A stretch of 32,541 nt of DNA, from positions 1 to 32,541 of the forward strand of contig QBYJ01000016.1 in NCBI GenBank assembly GCA_003282885.1, written 5' to 3'. This DNA is from SAR116 cluster bacterium AG-325-F22 (lineage in GTDB: Bacteria > Pseudomonadota > Alphaproteobacteria > Puniceispirillales > Marisalimonadaceae). Numbering within the stretch: the stretch's first letter is position 1; each line of letters opens with the position of its first letter. The notes beneath the pieces were generated by a model. That model had not been told where the DNA came from. It made no database searches and saw only the letters and a program-made list of their open reading frames with translations. Shown here in pieces: positions 11,153 through 29,950 of this stretch. A program made the translations under genes and the position numbers.

Positions 11153-11232
11153 ATAAAAACAATTTTAAAAATTAATGTTTATTAAAACTGATTTAATTTA
11201 TATTAATTAAAATAAGTAATTTAGTGTGTTTG

Positions 11233-11661
11233 ATGATTAAAGTAAATGAAAATAAGAAGCCTAGTGTAAAATTAATTAAACATTATATCAAGGATCTATC
11301 GTTTGAAAATCCCCAGTCTATTAATGAAAATAATCTAGAAAATAATAATAATAATAATTTGTCTCAAAATATGAGTTTTATTCACTCGTCTTATGAAAAC
11401 AGTTTTTTTAGTGTAGTTATAAAATTTGCTTGCGAATGTTCATCTAAACAAAATGGCAATAAACTTTTTGTTTTAGAGTTAGATTATTTTGGTTTTTTTA
11501 AAATTATTGATGACAACACACATAGCCAAACTGAATTGGCAAAAAAAGGCGTTAAATTAATTCTTCCTTTCGTACAGTCAGTAATTAAAGATGTTACTAA
11601 TAAAGGTGGAAGCACACCTATTTCTATAGAAGAAGTTAATTTAGATCTAATAAAAGACTAA
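11233..11661 (+). CDS. secB: Protein-export chaperone SecB
   Basis: A 142-aa chaperone that keeps preproteins unfolded and passes them to SecA. HYIKDLSFENPQ is the conserved first strand, LFVLELDYFGFFKI the second-strand block, and LPFVQSVIKDVTNKGG the C-terminal helix. An in-frame GTG at 11224 could extend it by three residues; the ATG at 11233 is preferred because it matches the usual family N-terminus. The loop after the first strand is a low-complexity Asn stretch encoded by about six AAT repeats (around 11342-11360), where the family normally has a more complex segment. The 3' end overlaps convergent dnaQ by 4 bp. Confidence 0.92.
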   Translation: MIKVNENKKPSVKLIKHYIKDLSFENPQSINENNLENNNNNNLSQNMSFIHSSYENSFFSVVIKFACECSSKQNGNKLFVLELDYFGFFKIIDDNTHSQTELAKKGVKLILPFVQSVIKDVTNKGGSTPISIEEVNLDLIKD

Positions 11662-12368
11662 AACTTTAATTCCTTCCAAATACTATTTGGTATATCTTTT
11701 ATACTCTTCTTGTGTAATTCGTTGTCATAAGTATTGAGAGAAATATTTTTTTGAGCTCTTTTTTCATTATTCTTGTATAAGCTTTCGATATTTATAGGTG
11801 TGTTTTCAAAATCTAAATCCGAAGTATTATCTTGGTCATTAAAGTTCAGTTTTGTTTGTTTTCCTCCAATAAGTTCTAAATAGACTTGTGCTAACAATTT
11901 AGCGTCCTTAATTGCACCATGTATTTCACGATGAGAAATATCTAAATTAAATTTTCTACATAAAGAGTCTAGACTTACAGATTGACCAACAAATTTTTTT
12001 TTTGCTAACAATAATGTATCAATTACAGAATGCTCACATAGTTCCGTTTTATTACATTTCCTTAGCTCTGAATTAATAAACCCAACATCAAAAGAGGCAT
12101 TATGTATAATAATTTTACTATCTGAAATAAAGTTAACAAATTGATCTACAATTTCAGCAAATTTAGGCTTGTCCTTTAAAAATTCCGCGGTTAGCCCATG
12201 AATTTTTAGTGCTTGAAAGTTAGATTCCTTTTCAGGATTTAGATAATAATGAAAACAGTTACCCGTTTGAACATGATTTTCTAATTCTACAATACCAATC
12301 TCAATTATTCGATCTCCATTGTTGACATCTAACCCTGTTGTTTCAGTATCTAGAACTATTTCCCTCAT
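11658..12368 (-). CDS. dnaQ: DNA polymerase III epsilon subunit (proofreading exonuclease)
   Basis: A 236-aa DEDDh 3'-5' exonuclease. Exo I is DTET (7-10), Exo II is HNASFDVGF, and Exo III is HGAIKDAKL with the catalytic His and Asp. After the nuclease domain QTKLNF resembles the QxxLxF clamp-binding motif found at the same place in E. coli epsilon. A polar linker then leads to a C-terminal helix ending IWKEL, the probable contact with the polymerase alpha subunit. Its ATG overlaps the coaE stop by 4 nt, so the two are translationally coupled. Position next to the origin matches other alphaproteobacteria. Confidence 0.96.
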   Translation of the reverse strand: MREIVLDTETTGLDVNNGDRIIEIGIVELENHVQTGNCFHYYLNPEKESNFQALKIHGLTAEFLKDKPKFAEIVDQFVNFISDSKIIIHNASFDVGFINSELRKCNKTELCEHSVIDTLLLAKKKFVGQSVSLDSLCRKFNLDISHREIHGAIKDAKLLAQVYLELIGGKQTKLNFNDQDNTSDLDFENTPINIESLYKNNEKRAQKNISLNTYDNELHKKSIKDIPNSIWKELKF

Positions 12369-12979
12369 AGATGTAAAATTCTCCTTTTAAAAATTATCGT
12401 TAGTAAATATCCAATAATTATAATAAAGCTTATAACTTTTCCATAAGATGTTGTCACTAAATATGGATTTTTTTTTCTTTTCTTCTCAGTACTCCATTGA
12501 GCCTTTTTAATAAGATTTAATTTTTCTTCGGTCATGCCAGACCTTCCTAAAACTCTTTTTTTTTGTGTTTCTTCATTTGTATAAGCTAAAAATATATCAT
12601 CACAAAACTTATCACCTCCCGTTTCGTATAACAATGGTACATCAAGGGCTACTATGAATGATTTTCTTACATTTTTAAAAAATAGATTTCTTCGCTCTTT
12701 AACACGTGGGTGTATAATTTTTTCAAGTATTCTTCTATTTTTTTTGTTAGTAAAAATTTTTTCACTTAATAAATGTTTACTTATTTTTTGTTTGCTTTTT
12801 TGAGTTTGTACAACTTCTGGCCAAATATCACATATTTGTTTTTGAACTATACTATGGTTTTGCAATAGATATTTAACTTCTCTATCTGAGTCAAACACAG
12901 GTATATTTAAACGCATCAACATTTTAGCAATTGTTGACTTCCCCATTCCTATGGAACCTGTAATACCTATTATAATCAT
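12365..12979 (-). CDS. coaE: Dephospho-CoA kinase
   Basis: A 204-aa P-loop kinase that phosphorylates dephospho-CoA, the last step of coenzyme A synthesis. GSIGMGKS (8-15) is the Walker A motif, FDSDREVK the substrate-binding DxD-like region, and IHPRVKERR and ALDVPLLYETGGD the conserved middle blocks. The C-terminus is more hydrophobic and basic than usual (a run of Ile/Leu, then FKRR) and could be a membrane-associating tail, but this is uncertain. It is the first minus-strand gene left of the origin spacer. The aroE and maf genes that commonly separate coaE from the alphaproteobacterial origin are absent. Confidence 0.95.
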   Translation of the reverse strand: MIIIGITGSIGMGKSTIAKMLMRLNIPVFDSDREVKYLLQNHSIVQKQICDIWPEVVQTQKSKQKISKHLLSEKIFTNKKNRRILEKIIHPRVKERRNLFFKNVRKSFIVALDVPLLYETGGDKFCDDIFLAYTNEETQKKRVLGRSGMTEEKLNLIKKAQWSTEKKRKKNPYLVTTSYGKVISFIIIIGYLLTIIFKRRILHL

Positions 12980-13253
12980 CAGTGTTTTTTTGTCTGTTAA
13001 TAAACTGTTGATAGTAATTTCTTATTTTTTAATAATTTAATAAACAAGAATATATTATGCATTTATTATTATTTTAACAACATCTGAATAAATAGAAAAA
13101 TTTTAATATAAATTGTTAATAAACTTAATTTTTTATTATATGTAAACAAACTATGTTATAAAAACCTGTGGATAGTTGATTTATTAATTTTTTTCCACAC
13201 AATTATACATGCTACTACTACAAAGTTAAAATAATTTAAAAAAGTTCACAATT
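12980..13253. other. Probable chromosomal replication origin (oriC)
   Basis: A 274-bp spacer between divergent coaE and hemE, extremely AT-rich. Near-consensus DnaA boxes: CTATCCACA on the minus strand (13167-13175) and TTTTCCACA on the plus strand (13191-13199), each one mismatch from TTATCCACA and facing each other across 15 bp. Two weaker TTATTAACA boxes on the minus strand (12995-13003, 13114-13122) lie in an exact 12-bp direct repeat. AT-only stretches between them could serve as unwinding elements. hemE beside the origin is the Caulobacter-type arrangement, and genes nearby on both sides mostly read outward. No TTAA-N7-TTAA CtrA site was found by eye. The hemE and coaE promoters must also lie here. 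Confidence 0.75.
12995..13125 (+). repeat. 12-bp direct repeat in the origin spacer
   Basis: TGTTAATAAACT occurs exactly at 12995-13006 and 13114-13125. Each copy contains TGTTAATAA, the reverse complement of the weak DnaA box TTATTAACA. The copies are 119 bp apart and lie on the coaE side of the two stronger boxes. Two exact copies of a 12-mer in AT-rich DNA may be chance, but the location suggests origin function. Confidence 0.5.
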
Positions 13254-14279
13254 ATGAATGACACACTAACAGATTTTTTTAAAGATAGGAACGAGAAAAC
13301 TCCTGTTTGGTTTCTTAGACAAGCTGGAAGGCACATACCTGAGTATTTTAAAATAAGAGAACAGGCTAACAATTTTATTGACTTTTGTTTGAATTCAAAA
13401 TTAGTTGTTCAGAGTACTAAGTTACCTTTAAAATACTATGATCTAGATGCGGCAATCGTTTTTTCAGACATACTAATGATTCCTTGGGCTATGGACAGGA
13501 ATGTAAGATTTATTAAAGGTATTGGTCCACAATTAGAGCCTATGATACCTAATGAGACCAAAATCTTAAAAAACATTAATATTTCAAATAAACTTGAACC
13601 CTTAAAAAACTCCATATTGACCTTAAAAAAGGAATTACCAAAATCCAAAAGTTTAATTGGTTTTGCTGGTGCCCCTTGGACGTTAGCTTGTTATATGATT
13701 GAGGGTCAAAGCAGTAAAGACTTTATCAATACAAGAAAGGCTCTTTGGAATTCAAATAAATGGTTTATGGAATTGCTAGACACGCTATGTATTCATGTTG
13801 CTAATAAATTAGAAATACAAGCTAATGCAGGTGCAGATATATTAATGTTATTTGATTCCTGGTCTCACATGATACCAAATAACTTTTTTCAAGAATGTGC
13901 AATAAATCCTACAGCCAGAATTATTAATATATTAAAATCAAAATATATCCATAAACCCATAATTGGATTACCTTTCAAAGCAGGTGCTTCTCTCATAAAT
14001 TATTCATATGAAAGTAATGTTGATTGTATAGCTCTAGACTGGACTGTAAATTTAAATTGGGCAAAGAAGAATCTTAATCCTTCAGTTGCTATTCAAGGAA
14101 ATCTTGATCCAATTTCACTTATATCATTAAAAACAGATCACTTGGAAAAAAATGTTCTTTCCATTTTGGATATCATGAAAGACAATAAATTTATTTTTAG
14201 TGTGGGTCACGGATTAACTCCAGATTGTAAAATAAAAAATGTCAGAAAGGTCATTGACATTGTTAGAAATTATCAATGA
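13254..14279 (+). CDS. hemE: Uroporphyrinogen III decarboxylase
   Basis: A 341-aa cytosolic enzyme that decarboxylates the four acetate chains of uroporphyrinogen III to give coproporphyrinogen III in heme synthesis. PVWFLRQAGRHIPEY (17-31) holds the substrate-binding Arg residues; AAIVFSDIL carries the catalytic Asp; GFAGAPWTLACYMIEG and the C-terminal VGHGLTPDCKI block are conserved. It is the first gene right of the origin spacer and heads a long plus-strand run. No strong Shine-Dalgarno is seen. The next gene, hemJ, acts later in the same pathway. Confidence 0.97.
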   Translation: MNDTLTDFFKDRNEKTPVWFLRQAGRHIPEYFKIREQANNFIDFCLNSKLVVQSTKLPLKYYDLDAAIVFSDILMIPWAMDRNVRFIKGIGPQLEPMIPNETKILKNINISNKLEPLKNSILTLKKELPKSKSLIGFAGAPWTLACYMIEGQSSKDFINTRKALWNSNKWFMELLDTLCIHVANKLEIQANAGADILMLFDSWSHMIPNNFFQECAINPTARIINILKSKYIHKPIIGLPFKAGASLINYSYESNVDCIALDWTVNLNWAKKNLNPSVAIQGNLDPISLISLKTDHLEKNVLSILDIMKDNKFIFSVGHGLTPDCKIKNVRKVIDIVRNYQ

Positions 14280-16020: not shown

Positions 16021-16036
16021 TGTTTCACGTGAAACA
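16021..16036. promoter_or_regulatory. parS site 1 (ParB-binding centromere)
   Basis: TGTTTCACGTGAAACA is a perfect 16-bp palindrome identical to the bacterial chromosomal parS consensus. It lies in the 45-nt spacer between the rho stop and the mnmE start, about 2.8 kb from the origin spacer and 4.6 kb from parB. ParB would load here as a CTP-dependent sliding clamp and be moved by ParA. It also forms an 8-bp hairpin arm but has no following T-run. Confidence 0.95.
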
Positions 16037-19246: not shown

Positions 19247-19883
19247 TTCTTATAATGATTTTTGTTTGTTTCAAGATGTTTCACGTGAAACATTTGAAAA
19301 ATTTTCTGTTTACTATCAAACTCTAATAAAATGGCAAAATTCTATTAATTTAATTAGTAAAAATACTATAGAGAGAATTTGGGAGAGACATTTTCTAGAT
19401 TCAGCACAACTATATAACATTACAAAAGAGATTGATGGAAATATCATTGATTTTGGTTCAGGCGCAGGTTTTCCTGGTTTGATTTTAGCGATGATGGGTA
19501 ACAAAAAGATACATTTAGTTGAATCAGACCAAAAAAAATGTACATTTTTGCGAGAGGTTTCTATGCTTTCTGAAACAAATGTTACAGTTCATCACAATAG
19601 AATTGAAGACCTAGAATATTTTGATGTTGAACTTATTACTGCTAGAGCTTTAGCTCCGTTAAATAAATTGATAGATTATGCTGAAGCTTTTACAAAGAAT
19701 TCTTCAACCAATCAAAAGCTTCCTAAACTACTGTTTTTGAAGGGTAAATCATATAAGAAAGAAATTTCAGAGCTAGGTAAAAGGAAAAGCCTCTCTATTG
19801 AAGAATTTGATTCAATTACAGATAAATTTGGTAAAATTTTATATATTAATAAAATAAATATGTTAAATATTAAAGATGAATAA
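19236..19883 (+). CDS. rsmG: 16S rRNA (guanine527-N7)-methyltransferase RsmG
   Basis: A 215-aa SAM-dependent enzyme methylating G527 of 16S r[16 protein letters not shown] (70-82) is the SAM-binding motif [10 protein letters not shown] (51-59) is the conserved helix before it, and [12 protein letters not shown] the catalytic-domain block. Residues 14-19 read DVSRET, and the DNA encoding them is a perfect parS palindrome (separate entry), a dual-use codon arrangement known from several bacteria. It overlaps mnmG by 11 nt and parA by 8 nt. Confidence 0.97.
19277..19292. promoter_or_regulatory. parS site 2 inside the rsmG coding sequence
   Basis: A second exact TGTTTCACGTGAAACA lies in frame within rsmG and encodes part of DVSRET. 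It is about 3.3 kb from parS site 1 and 0.6 kb upstream of parA. Two identical 16-bp palindromes within 3.3 kb of the parAB genes make chance implausible. Confidence 0.95.
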
Positions 19884-20655
19884 AAATTGTGGTCAAATAA
19901 TTGCAGTTGCCAACCAAAAAGGTGGTGTAGGAAAAACTACAACTGTTGTTAATTTAGCTACTGCTATGGCTGCTTGTGATAAGAAAACCCTCATTATTGA
20001 TTCGGATCCACAAGGCAATGCCAGCACTGGATTTGGTGTTAGCTATAATGATCGAGATAAAGATTTATACTCTGTAATCTGTGGAAAAACAAATATTAAC
20101 AAAGCAATAAAATCTACTATGATCCCGAGGCTTGACATAATTCCCACATCGCCTGATTTGTCTGTACTTGAACAGGAATTAGTTGATGTGCAGAATAGGG
20201 AGTATAAAATTAAAAGTCTATTAAAAGAGATAAAAATAAATTATGATTATATCTTTATTGATTGTCCCCCATCTTTAGGACTGCTTACATTAAATGCTTT
20301 ATGTGCTGCTAAAAGTCTCATAATTCCATTACAAACAGAATACTATGCATTAGAAGGGCTATCACAGCTTATCAAAACATTAGAATCCGTTAAAGGTAAT
20401 TTTAATAAAGATATTGCATTAAAGGGTATATTGTTGACTATGTATGATAAAAGAAACAAAATTTGTGAAATGGTATCAAATGATGTTAAAAATCATTTTA
20501 GTAACAAGGTTTTTAAAACTGTTATTCCGAGAAATGTAAGAGTTTCTGAAGCTCCAAGCTATGGTCAACCAGTTTTGATGTATGATATATCTTGCCCTGG
20601 ATCACAAGCATATGCATCTCTTGCGGGTGAAATCATAAATCAAGAGAAAGACTAA
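19876..20655 (+). CDS. parA: Chromosome-partitioning ATPase ParA (Soj)
   Basis: A 259-aa deviant Walker ATPase that moves origin regions apart by cycling on and off the nucleoid. KGGVGKT (15-21) with the signature first Lys, DSDPQGNAS (Walker A' region), DYIFIDCPPSLGLL (Walker B) and the C-terminal VIPRNVRVSEAPSYGQP are all present. The short N-terminus without a helix-turn-helix marks the chromosomal Soj-type form rather than a plasmid ParA. It overlaps rsmG by 8 nt and is 1 nt upstream of parB. Confidence 0.97.
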   Translation: MNKNCGQIIAVANQKGGVGKTTTVVNLATAMAACDKKTLIIDSDPQGNASTGFGVSYNDRDKDLYSVICGKTNINKAIKSTMIPRLDIIPTSPDLSVLEQELVDVQNREYKIKSLLKEIKINYDYIFIDCPPSLGLLTLNALCAAKSLIIPLQTEYYALEGLSQLIKTLESVKGNFNKDIALKGILLTMYDKRNKICEMVSNDVKNHFSNKVFKTVIPRNVRVSEAPSYGQPVLMYDISCPGSQAYASLAGEIINQEKD

Positions 20656-20656
20656 A

Positions 20657-21538
20657 ATGAAAAAAAATAAAAATACAAAAATTAGTGGATTAGGAAGTGG
20701 TCTATCAAGTTTATTAGGAAGTGAATTTGAAAAAAAATCAATACTAAGAGAGGAAAATAATAATGAAGGATATAAAATGGTTCCAATTGAATTTATTCAA
20801 CCTGGATCATGGCAACCAAGAAAAAAATTTGATAAAAAGGAATTAGAATCTTTAACAAAATCAATTAAAAATCAAGGTGTTATTCAACCTATAATCCTAA
20901 AAACGAGAGAAGACAAACAAAATCATTATCATTTGATTGCTGGTGAAAGAAGATGGAGAGCCTGTCAAATGGCTAAAATACATGAAATACCATCAATTAT
21001 AAGAGATGATATAGAGAATAACAAAATCGCAGAATTGTCTTTAGTAGAAAACATTCAAAGATCGGAATTAAATCCAATAGAAGAGTCTGAGGGTTATCAA
21101 TCTTTAATTGAAAATTATAATTATACACAGGAAGAAATTTCAAAAGCTGTAGGTAAATCTCGATCTTATATTGCCAATATTTTAAGGTTAAAGTCATTAT
21201 CAGAATTAGCTAAAGAATTTCTAGTACAAGAAAAGTTAACTGTCGGTCAAATAAGACCTCTTATTGGACACAATAATATCGATCACTTGCTTGAATTGAT
21301 AAATAAAAATAATTTAACGTCAAGACAAGTCGAAAAACTAGTAAAGAAACAAAGTAAAAAGGCACCTTTTTCAAAAAATAAAGATTTAGATATTTTAGAA
21401 TTAGAAAAGGAGATTTTAGAAATTACAGGTATTAGAGTGAAGATTAATTTTAATAATATAAAAGAAACAGGAAATATAACATTTGAATGTAAGAACTTAA
21501 CCGAATTTGACTATGTGTTGAAAAAAATTAAGTCTTAA
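20657..21538 (+). CDS. parB: Chromosome-partitioning protein ParB (Spo0J)
   Basis: A 293-aa parS-binding CTPase clamp. The N-terminal GLGSGLSSLLG (11-21) is the ParA-stimulating motif. The CTP-binding domain contains GERRWRA (96-102) and ENIQRSELNPIEE (131-143). The helix-turn-helix (about 157-178, TQEEISKAVGKSRSYIANIL) contacts parS. The C-terminal dimerisation domain starts about residue 245. Two parS sites lie 1.4 and 4.6 kb upstream. The 3' end overlaps convergent holA by 11 bp. Confidence 0.97.
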   Translation: MKKNKNTKISGLGSGLSSLLGSEFEKKSILREENNNEGYKMVPIEFIQPGSWQPRKKFDKKELESLTKSIKNQGVIQPIILKTREDKQNHYHLIAGERRWRACQMAKIHEIPSIIRDDIENNKIAELSLVENIQRSELNPIEESEGYQSLIENYNYTQEEISKAVGKSRSYIANILRLKSLSELAKEFLVQEKLTVGQIRPLIGHNNIDHLLELINKNNLTSRQVEKLVKKQSKKAPFSKNKDLDILELEKEILEITGIRVKINFNNIKETGNITFECKNLTEFDYVLKKIKS

Positions 21539-22571
21539 CTCTTTTTTTAGCCAGTATAGAAGTTGACAATATAAATTGGGATATGAGAGTTTTTTCTGGA
21601 TATAGGCCTGTTTTAGTCTTTAATTCAAGATCAATTAGTCTCTTTTGAATTAAATTTATTTTTTTAAAAGACCACAAATTACATTGAGACAGAAAAAAAG
21701 GCTTATCTTTGAAAAAAACAGGTGGTTTTAAACAGTCTACAGCTTCAGAAAAACTGCTTCCAAGTTGACTTGATATAAGAATTTTCTCAACAGTCTTAAA
21801 ATGTTTCCCAAACATTCTTACAAGAATAATATTACTATTTGATTTATCATAAATTTTTTCTAAGTAATTTAAAGATTCTTTTGCATCACCCATTGAACAT
21901 GACTTCACAACTTTATTCAAGTTTATGTCCTCGTTATTCATTAGAAATTTAAAAAGTACGTCTTCAGTAACAGTTTTGTTGTTTTTTAAAAAACTATCTA
22001 ATTTATCTAATTCCATTTTATTAGATAAAGAGTCTGAATTAAAAGTGGAACTGAACTTTGAAATAAATTCATTAGAAAAAAAAATCTTATGCTTAATAAG
22101 TATATTATTTATATTATTTTTTATTTTATTAGTTTTTTCTTCATAACATACGGTTAAAATACTTTTATTTGAATTTTTGAAATATTTAACTAGTTGATTT
22201 TGCTCGCCTATGTTTCCTGCTTTTATAATAAGTAAATAATTAATATCTTCCTCAACTACTGAGTTTAAAATAATATTTTCAATATTTTTGTTAATCCTTA
22301 TGTGTGATAAATCCAATAAGATAATTTTCCTTTCTGAAAAAATATTTAACGTGTTTATATTATCTTCAAGAATTAAAGGGTTTTCGCTAAATTCGGAACC
22401 ATCAATCTTAGAAACATTAAAAGGATTATTTACATCAATATTTAATAATGTAATAGATTTATTGTATAATAAATCTATTAAACCCAAATTAGATCCATAA
22501 AAAAAAATTATTTTGGTGTTTTTGCAATTTCTTTGAATATATTCTTCAAAATTGTCAGATTTAATTTTCAA
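21528..22571 (-). CDS. holA: DNA polymerase III delta subunit
   Basis: A 347-aa clamp-loader delta subunit, called from the fold pattern and context. IIFFYGSNLGLID near residue 21 is the degenerate P-loop region of HolA, followed by an ATPase-like domain, a linker, and a C-terminal helical collar with KHFKTVEKIL and PPVFFKDKPFF, blocks typical of alphaproteobacterial HolA. It overlaps the lptE stop by 11 nt and follows leuS-lptE, the standard proteobacterial order. Divergence is high, as usual for this subunit. Confidence 0.88.
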   Translation of the reverse strand: MKIKSDNFEEYIQRNCKNTKIIFFYGSNLGLIDLLYNKSITLLNIDVNNPFNVSKIDGSEFSENPLILEDNINTLNIFSERKIILLDLSHIRINKNIENIILNSVVEEDINYLLIIKAGNIGEQNQLVKYFKNSNKSILTVCYEEKTNKIKNNINNILIKHKIFFSNEFISKFSSTFNSDSLSNKMELDKLDSFLKNNKTVTEDVLFKFLMNNEDINLNKVVKSCSMGDAKESLNYLEKIYDKSNSNIILVRMFGKHFKTVEKILISSQLGSSFSEAVDCLKPPVFFKDKPFFLSQCNLWSFKKINLIQKRLIDLELKTKTGLYPEKTLISQFILSTSILAKKRVKT

Positions 22572-23049
22572 TTAGTTTTCTTAAAGTTATATGAGTTATT
22601 ATATAAAGTTTATTAGCTGAGTTTTGACTCAATCTTTCTTTTATATGATCTAAACTTATTTCATTGCTATATAGTGAATTTGATGAAAAACCTAGTGCAG
22701 GAAAAGTTTTTATTGAACCAGATTTAACCAAAAGATTTGAATTATTATCTATTAATGTGTATTTAGTAACACCCGAAGTTGTATTGACTGCCTTTGAATT
22801 ACCTAGTGATAATGTATCATTGGAAGTAAAAGAAATATCAGCCTTTAGAACAAAGTCAGCTTGAAGCTCTTTTTCATTATTGAATTTTCTTTTTAAATAT
22901 TCTTTTAGAAGGATATTATATTTATTGTTTGGTGTTTCAATTGCAATAGACTTGTCATTAACAGTGTTAATTTTGACAATGTTCTCAGTTGAACAACCAA
23001 AAATAGTTATGAGAAGTAAAAATGTTACAATTTTCTTAATGAAAAACAT
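22561..23049 (-). CDS. lptE: LPS-assembly lipoprotein LptE
   Basis: A 162-aa lipoprotein: a hydrophobic signal ends TIFGC with Cys19 as the lipidation site. The rest has LptE-like features, including DFVLKADISF, YTLIDNNSNLLVKSGSIKTFPAL and a C-terminal helix. LptE plugs the LptD barrel and helps insert LPS in the outer membrane. Similarity is weak, as is typical for the family; the leuS-lptE-holA position is the main support. The gap to leuS is 13 nt. Confidence 0.83.
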   Translation of the reverse strand: MFFIKKIVTFLLLITIFGCSTENIVKINTVNDKSIAIETPNNKYNILLKEYLKRKFNNEKELQADFVLKADISFTSNDTLSLGNSKAVNTTSGVTKYTLIDNNSNLLVKSGSIKTFPALGFSSNSLYSNEISLDHIKERLSQNSANKLYIITHITLRKLIEN

Positions 23050-29266: not shown

Positions 29267-29950
29267 ATGGATAAAAATATTAGTATATTAATATATGAAA
29301 AAGACAAACATTTAAATTCAATTTTGTATAACCAAATTTCAGATGTAATTGAATATGAAACTTATGCAGTAAATGATGAATTTAATGTGTTGGAATTGGT
29401 AAATGAAAAAAAATTTGATGTATGTATTTTGAATATTGAAGACATAAACCCTATATCTAAAAAATTCTTTGACAATCTTTTAGACAAAAATCATCATGTA
29501 GATATTGTTGGCTATTGTAACAAATTAGTTAATAATAGTATTATTAATAACTTGAACATTATAGTAATAGAAAAACCCTTTAGGCTAAGAACTTTATTTG
29601 AAAAATTAGAATATTTAAAATTAACTAGAAGTAAAAGAAATAAAATAATTTTAATAAAACATATAGAATTTTTACCTAATAAAAAGACTTTATTCAATTC
29701 GAGAACAAAGGTTACGGTACATTTGACTGAAAAAGAAAATTATCTTTTACACTATCTATATGACAAGAGAAATGAAGAGTTAACTAAGAATGACTTATTA
29801 ATTAATATTTGGGGTATAACAGAGGAAATTAATACACACACTTTAGAAACACATATATATAGATTAAAACAAAAATTATTTAAATTAGAGCCTAATTTAT
29901 CTTTTTCGTTAATAAATAATAATGGTTTATATAGTATAACTAAATTTTAG
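29267..29950 (+). CDS. OmpR/PhoB-type regulator with a pseudo-receiver domain
   Basis: A 227-aa protein with a two-component response-regulator layout. The N-terminal receiver-like domain (1-115) is degenerate: the acidic pair position reads EKD (11-13), the phosphoacceptor Asp position is Asn56 (CILNIED), and the switch Thr/Ser is replaced; only Lys103 in IEKPF is kept. The C-terminal winged helix (about 135-227), with LTEKENYLLHYL and NTHTLETHIYRLKQKL, is intact and should bind DNA. No histidine kinase is adjacent. The cupin gene follows with a 7- or 10-nt spacer and is probably in the same operon. Phosphorylation-independent control is inferred; targets are unknown. Confidence 0.88.
   Translation: MDKNISILIYEKDKHLNSILYNQISDVIEYETYAVNDEFNVLELVNEKKFDVCILNIEDINPISKKFFDNLLDKNHHVDIVGYCNKLVNNSIINNLNIIVIEKPFRLRTLFEKLEYLKLTRSKRNKIILIKHIEFLPNKKTLFNSRTKVTVHLTEKENYLLHYLYDKRNEELTKNDLLINIWGITEEINTHTLETHIYRLKQKLFKLEPNLSFSLINNNGLYSITKF

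Follow-up and report, generated by a model that had tools for sequence, protein, structure and literature searches.

The AT-rich spacer between the divergent coaE and hemE genes of this SAR116 contig is almost certainly a chromosomal replication origin, and on comparative evidence its sequence is best explained, with good probability, as a hemE-type oriC whose basal unwinding system (BUS) is a G-anchored variant. The window, meaning the whole stretch of 32,541 nucleotides analysed, corresponds to one entire contig (G000:C16) of a 1.6-Mb MAG, 63% complete, from a low-GC member of the SAR116 group (Alphaproteobacteria); the hemE of SAR116-cluster AG-893-L10, among its closest named relatives, is 90% identical to the hemE of the window. 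How DnaA recognizes the opened strand is a current question, and the published rule is that a central adenine is read by Asn187. The origin family described here forms a natural series of deviant trios at one homologous site, some of them adenine-free beside perfect boxes, together with a candidate DnaA residue. If the G-anchored reading is true, searches requiring adenine would miss such elements.

The limits of the spacer given in the preliminary description are exact (12980..13253, 274 bp), with coaE ending at 12979 on the minus strand and hemE starting at 13254 on the plus strand. Its GC content is 17.2%, and only 0.08% of the 274-bp segments of the contig are lower. On the left, coaE (12365..12979, minus strand) adjoins the spacer directly, as had been proposed, and is followed by dnaQ, the epsilon subunit of Pol III (11658..12368, minus strand). 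On the right lies hemE (13254..14279, plus strand; uroporphyrinogen decarboxylase), the conserved right flank of alphaproteobacterial origins (PMC1914354), and further downstream parA (19876..20655, plus strand) and parB (20657..21538, plus strand; TIGR00180). Profile searches confirmed dnaQ, coaE, hemE, hemJ, rho, mnmE, mnmG, rsmG and parB, while parA was assigned from ParA-superfamily matches and gene order, none of the models shown reaching its curated cut-off. The strand switch described at the spacer is real; the left-reading run is nevertheless interrupted by secB (11224-11661), which reads right. An Rfam scan of the window retrieved a tRNA-Gln as its sole match. Two minus-strand genes between parB and leuS (21528-22571 and 22561-23049) had no Pfam matches and, from their position, might be divergent holA and lptE.

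The comparison of the spacer across related genomes, an alignment of 29 spacers including that of the window, shows six DnaA box-like sites kept in place, five on the minus strand and one on the plus strand (13191). The weaker minus-strand sites are a1 (TTATTAACA, 12995..13003; mean major-base frequency 0.84, against a background of 0.62), a2 (CTATCAACA, 13006..13014; 0.89; TTATCAACA in 12 of the 29 spacers), b (TTATTCAGA, 13083..13091; 0.82; TTATTAACA and related forms in relatives) and c (TTATTAACA, 13114..13122; 0.92; TTATTCACA in 10 relatives). The strong box d (CTATCCACA, 13167..13175, minus strand; 0.90; TTATCCACA in 12 relatives) is faced by the strong box e (TTTTCCACA, 13191..13199, plus strand; 0.82), which points at the trio array discussed below. 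The preliminary description had recognized this near-consensus facing pair, as well as two weaker boxes in a 12-bp direct repeat, and both are indeed present: the repeat, TGTTAATAAACT, occupies 12995-13006 and 13114-13125, its copies, which hold a1 and c, both beginning with TGTTAATAA. It had overlooked the box-like sites at 13006 and 13083, the trio array and two perfect parS sites. In Markov shuffles of the spacer, the two matches with at most one mismatch compare with 0.09 expected (P=0.002), and the seven with at most two mismatches with 1.4 expected, a number equalled in none of 3000 shuffles. Taken together, boxes and trio array have a mean major-base frequency of 0.846 against 0.62 elsewhere, reached by none of 273 circular shifts. 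Boxes d and e face each other at a separation of 14-17 bp in relatives; in four of them (L006, L010, L023 and L094), perfect TTATCCACA boxes stand face-to-face at this site with 16-17 bp between them, while box e in L019 and the trio array in L028 are degraded. All these genomes are related by descent, and counts across them are not independent events.

Located 12 bp beyond box e, CTACTACTA constitutes a canonical DnaA-trio array with three 3'-GAT-5' units (13212..13223, minus strand; top strand CTACTACTACAA, bottom strand 3'-GAT GAT GAT GTT-5'). The AT-rich stretch that runs from the trios to hemE (13224..13253) is presumed, from its position and composition, to be the start of the DNA unwinding element (DUE). 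According to the BUS survey, this system comprises a DnaA box with at most two mismatches, a spacer of at most 16 bp, usually 10-13 bp, and three or more trios with a central adenine (PMC8287927); box e has one mismatch, its spacer is 12 bp and three such trios follow. A BUS-like opening from box e is, judging from sequence, the likely mode of unwinding. The likeness to the DnaA-trio/BUS of Bacillus subtilis extends to the box, the 12-bp spacer, the strand of the period-3 array and the three 3'-GAT-5' units, whereas the central adenine is unconserved in most congeners and in many Alphaproteobacteria, and DnaA has Tyr in place of Asn187.

The period of the array is conserved far beyond its central base. 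At this site, runs of four or more C spaced at period 3 were found in 26 of the 28 genomes of the genus (0.57 expected from dinucleotide shuffles), in 9 of 12 from other genera of the same family, f1 (0.06 expected), and in 14 of 21 from families f2 and f4 (2.1 expected), the remaining seven of these origins having no run of this length. Across the class, runs of at least five were recovered in 30 of 50 Alphaproteobacteria (4.1 expected), compared with 8/50 in an upstream stretch taken as control and 4/50 when G was used instead of C. Since the run is defined by its first position, the constancy of that position is by construction, and what is informative is that such runs exceed the shuffled expectation and that the central base is free to vary. 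Read on the trio strand, this central base is T in 69 and A in 40 units of the genus; in the class sample it is G in 59, T in 56, A in 47 and C in 13. C is also frequent at the top-strand central position of the class sample, and the signal may partly reflect composition or misplacement.

These counts bear on a more conservative reading, namely that this is an ordinary hemE-type oriC with standard central-adenine trios, whose CAA and CAT arrays in relatives are merely degraded while the adenine rule stays functionally intact. The window by itself agrees with it, displaying every published sequence feature of the BUS (a one-mismatch box, a 12-bp spacer and three 3'-GAT-5'). However, three or more consecutive central-adenine trios, in any register, occur in only 8 of the 28 genomes of the genus, despite a period-3 array in 26, and two of them (L023 and L094) have pure CAA arrays of four units each beside perfect boxes. 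Degradation would not keep both the G and the spacing, and we regard this reading as unlikely.

In the structure of the B. subtilis protein, Asn187, a residue that is not universal in DnaA, contacts the central adenine, and replacement of this base by T or G impairs opening (PMC10721633). The DnaA of the window's own genome has Tyr at the position equivalent to 187, keeps I190, I193 and E228, and has Lys in place of R202. Of 51 sequences examined in the order, 48 have Tyr at residue 187, and the 25 sequences of the class that aligned comprise 21 Tyr, 3 Phe and 1 His. As the arrays of relatives retain G at every third base while their central base varies, we propose that alphaproteobacterial DnaA recognizes this G together with the spacing, and not a central adenine, owing to the Tyr (in some cases Phe) that occupies the Asn187 position. 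The generalization that hemE-type origins of Alphaproteobacteria use a G-anchored trio (3'-G[A/T/G]N-5') linked to the change from Asn187 to Tyr/Phe is put forward tentatively, with the odds somewhat against it. The association between Tyr187 and a variant central base is a correlation at the class level and not within the genus: residue 187 was rejected as an explanation of the trio type among congeners, as all 20 checked have Tyr, CTA-rich and CAA arrays alike. As a separate observation, six DnaA sequences (L003, L247, L248, L245, L249 and L246) read IRQKDT at the positions of B. subtilis residues 193-198, which include a trio-contacting residue, where other members of the genus mostly read IRLKET or IRLKDT. 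This sub-clade holds the window and has CTA-rich trio arrays, and, being a single clade, is confounded by ancestry.

Deviant trios lacking adenine have been suspected before, by Pelliciari et al. (2021; PMC8287927), among the 15% of origins in which no trio was found. A literature search pairing the DnaA-trio with Alphaproteobacteria retrieved one unrelated paper and nothing on the present question.

The DUE of the Escherichia coli oriC contains TT[A/G]T(T) motifs, and a further alternative, which we hold to be improbable, is that the array is a single-strand DUE of this type (5'-TT[A/G]T(T)-3'), read from the boxes via DNA bending, with 5'-TTGTTGTTG-3' holding TTGT by chance. The top-strand CAA repeats give 5'-TTGTTG-3' on the trio strand, so that CAA-type arrays contain TTGT and fit the E. 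coli motif, and both the strand of the array and its side relative to the box are equal to those of E. coli. In contrast to that element, the SAR116 array has a strict period of 3 and a short fixed spacer, lying 11-14 nt from the box in most genomes of the genus, and CTACTACTA of the window has neither a TTGT nor a TTAT repeat. The BUS score of E. coli itself is weak (PMC8287927), and the E. coli-type DUE and DnaA-trio models may overlap.

Under the preferred G-anchored BUS, DnaA would bind the left-pointing sites, weakly at a1, a2, b and c and strongly at d, together with the strong facing box e. Box e would then guide DnaA over the 12-nt spacer onto the bottom-strand array 3'-GAT GAT GAT GTT-5', which DnaA would capture as a single strand, melting the AT-rich stretch before hemE, where the helicase would be loaded. 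ParB would act at the two parS sites in origin segregation.

The location of the origin can be assessed independently of its mode of opening. A GC-skew minimum had been anticipated at about 13.1 kb, and the cumulative skew of the contig reaches its minimum at 13270; this is weak evidence alone, as the skew of this genome is readable over 32.5 kb only and the genes change strand at that point. Relatives provide a longer view. In G058, a complete single-contig relative sampled every 135 kb, the skew switches at hemE, with 10 of 10 samples positive in the right arm and 9 of 10 negative in the left, the exceptional left-arm sample lying beside the expected terminus. Similarly, in a 728-kb contig of a congener (G012) the skew is -3660 to the left of hemE and +4235 to the right, with its minimum 34 kb away from hemE, and the density of TTATNCACA in this contig peaks at the coaE/hemE spacer. 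In the window, perfect parS sites (TGTTTCACGTGAAACA) are present between rho and mnmE (16021..16036) and at the start of rsmG (19277..19292), 2.8 and 6 kb from the spacer. An origin at dnaA, which would have spoken against the spacer if accompanied by dense boxes, was rejected in view of the distance between dnaA and hemE (about 63 kb within the genus, 76-125 kb among single-contig relatives) and of the dnaA leader of G012, the relative that could be examined, in whose roughly 480 bp every box-like match has more than one mismatch; TTATCCACA and TTATACACA do occur near dnaA, inside an upstream gene that we read as mutM. That the spacer is a mere divergent coaE/hemE promoter region, with the origin elsewhere, is very hard to sustain: it parts divergent genes and so must carry promoters, yet such a reading runs against the skew switch, the parS sites, the box cluster, the trio array and the lack of a box cluster at the congener's dnaA. 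The assignment of oriC to this spacer in the preliminary description is thus upheld by the conserved boxes, the skew of relatives, the parS sites and that same lack.

The region before dnaA has a peculiarity of its own. In about a dozen related assemblies (L003:1-78; L231-L235, L237, L244-L246 and L249), the contig breaks off no more than about 200 bp before the start of dnaA, much more often than expected by chance; in the window's own MAG, the dnaA contig begins 78 bp before the ATG. The AT-rich dnaA leader contains a conserved block, AAAAATCAATA followed by a T-rich segment and CTTGCGA. Repeats were rejected as the cause of these breaks, as the G012 leader gives only weak partial matches elsewhere in its contig, and the RNA folding of the leader was not stronger than that of the control.

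The closest described counterpart of this locus is the Cori of Caulobacter crescentus, or hemE-COG1806 type, with which it shares the hemE flank and the position on the hemE side, an AT-rich spacer, DnaA boxes of mixed strength and nearby par genes. The origins of Caulobacter and Rickettsia are bounded by hemE on one side and by COG1806/DUF299, now named PPPase, on the other (PMC1914354). In contrast, the window contains neither PPPase nor maf at this place, and coaE adjoins the spacer instead. The left flank reads PPPase-maf-coaE in an f2 genome, PPPase-coaE in an f3 genome and coaE alone in the own family f1, with hemE on the other flank in every relative that has both genes on the contig. 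PPPase (COG1806, PF03618) was found in none of 58 f1 genomes and adjoins hemE in families f2, f3 and f4. Genomes of f2 and f4 mostly have two Maf genes, one of them beside hemE, while no more than a single Maf gene, away from hemE, is present in those of f1 and f3, so that the origin-linked Maf paralogue is missing in both. PPPase plus maf thus make up the lost block, and the loss apparently proceeded in steps. The earlier idea that an aroE-maf block is missing holds for the origin-linked maf in f1 and fails for aroE: aroE-like genes are present elsewhere in the genome and do not stand beside the origin in single-contig relatives, and the other loss is that of PPPase.

A second difference from Cori concerns CtrA. 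As the preliminary description stated, the spacer of the window contains no TTAA-N7-TTAA; matches in relatives are scattered and unconserved, and those at block b of some relatives coincide with TGTTAATAA-type boxes and were rejected as CtrA sites in favour of DnaA-type boxes. Searches with a Caulobacter CtrA sequence recovered matches of 48-52% identity (228-249 bits) in most f2 genomes and 41-43% identity (185-203 bits) in most f4 genomes. No ctrA ortholog was found among 37 genomes of the genus, two of which are 99-100% complete; their best match (110 bits, 35%) is at the level of the other OmpR-type regulators that f2 genomes carry besides CtrA. The absence of CtrA sites from the spacer is expected from that of the gene, and the CtrA-independent control suggested earlier is now more strongly supported: initiation in this genus would not be gated by CtrA, while GcrA is kept in most of its genomes. 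A literature search linking SAR116 with CtrA found none. The locus is a clean example of a Caulobacter-type origin without its usual left neighbours and without ctrA, useful for tracing CtrA-free control of initiation. Outside the genus, three nearly complete genomes of other SAR116 families (G064, G076 and G078) had no strong CtrA match, so that ctrA may have been lost repeatedly within the order. The window itself encodes a 227-aa protein (29267-29950) whose sole domain match in Pfam searches is an OmpR-type DNA-binding domain at the C terminus, with no receiver domain found; its gene adjoins that of a JmjC-type oxygenase.
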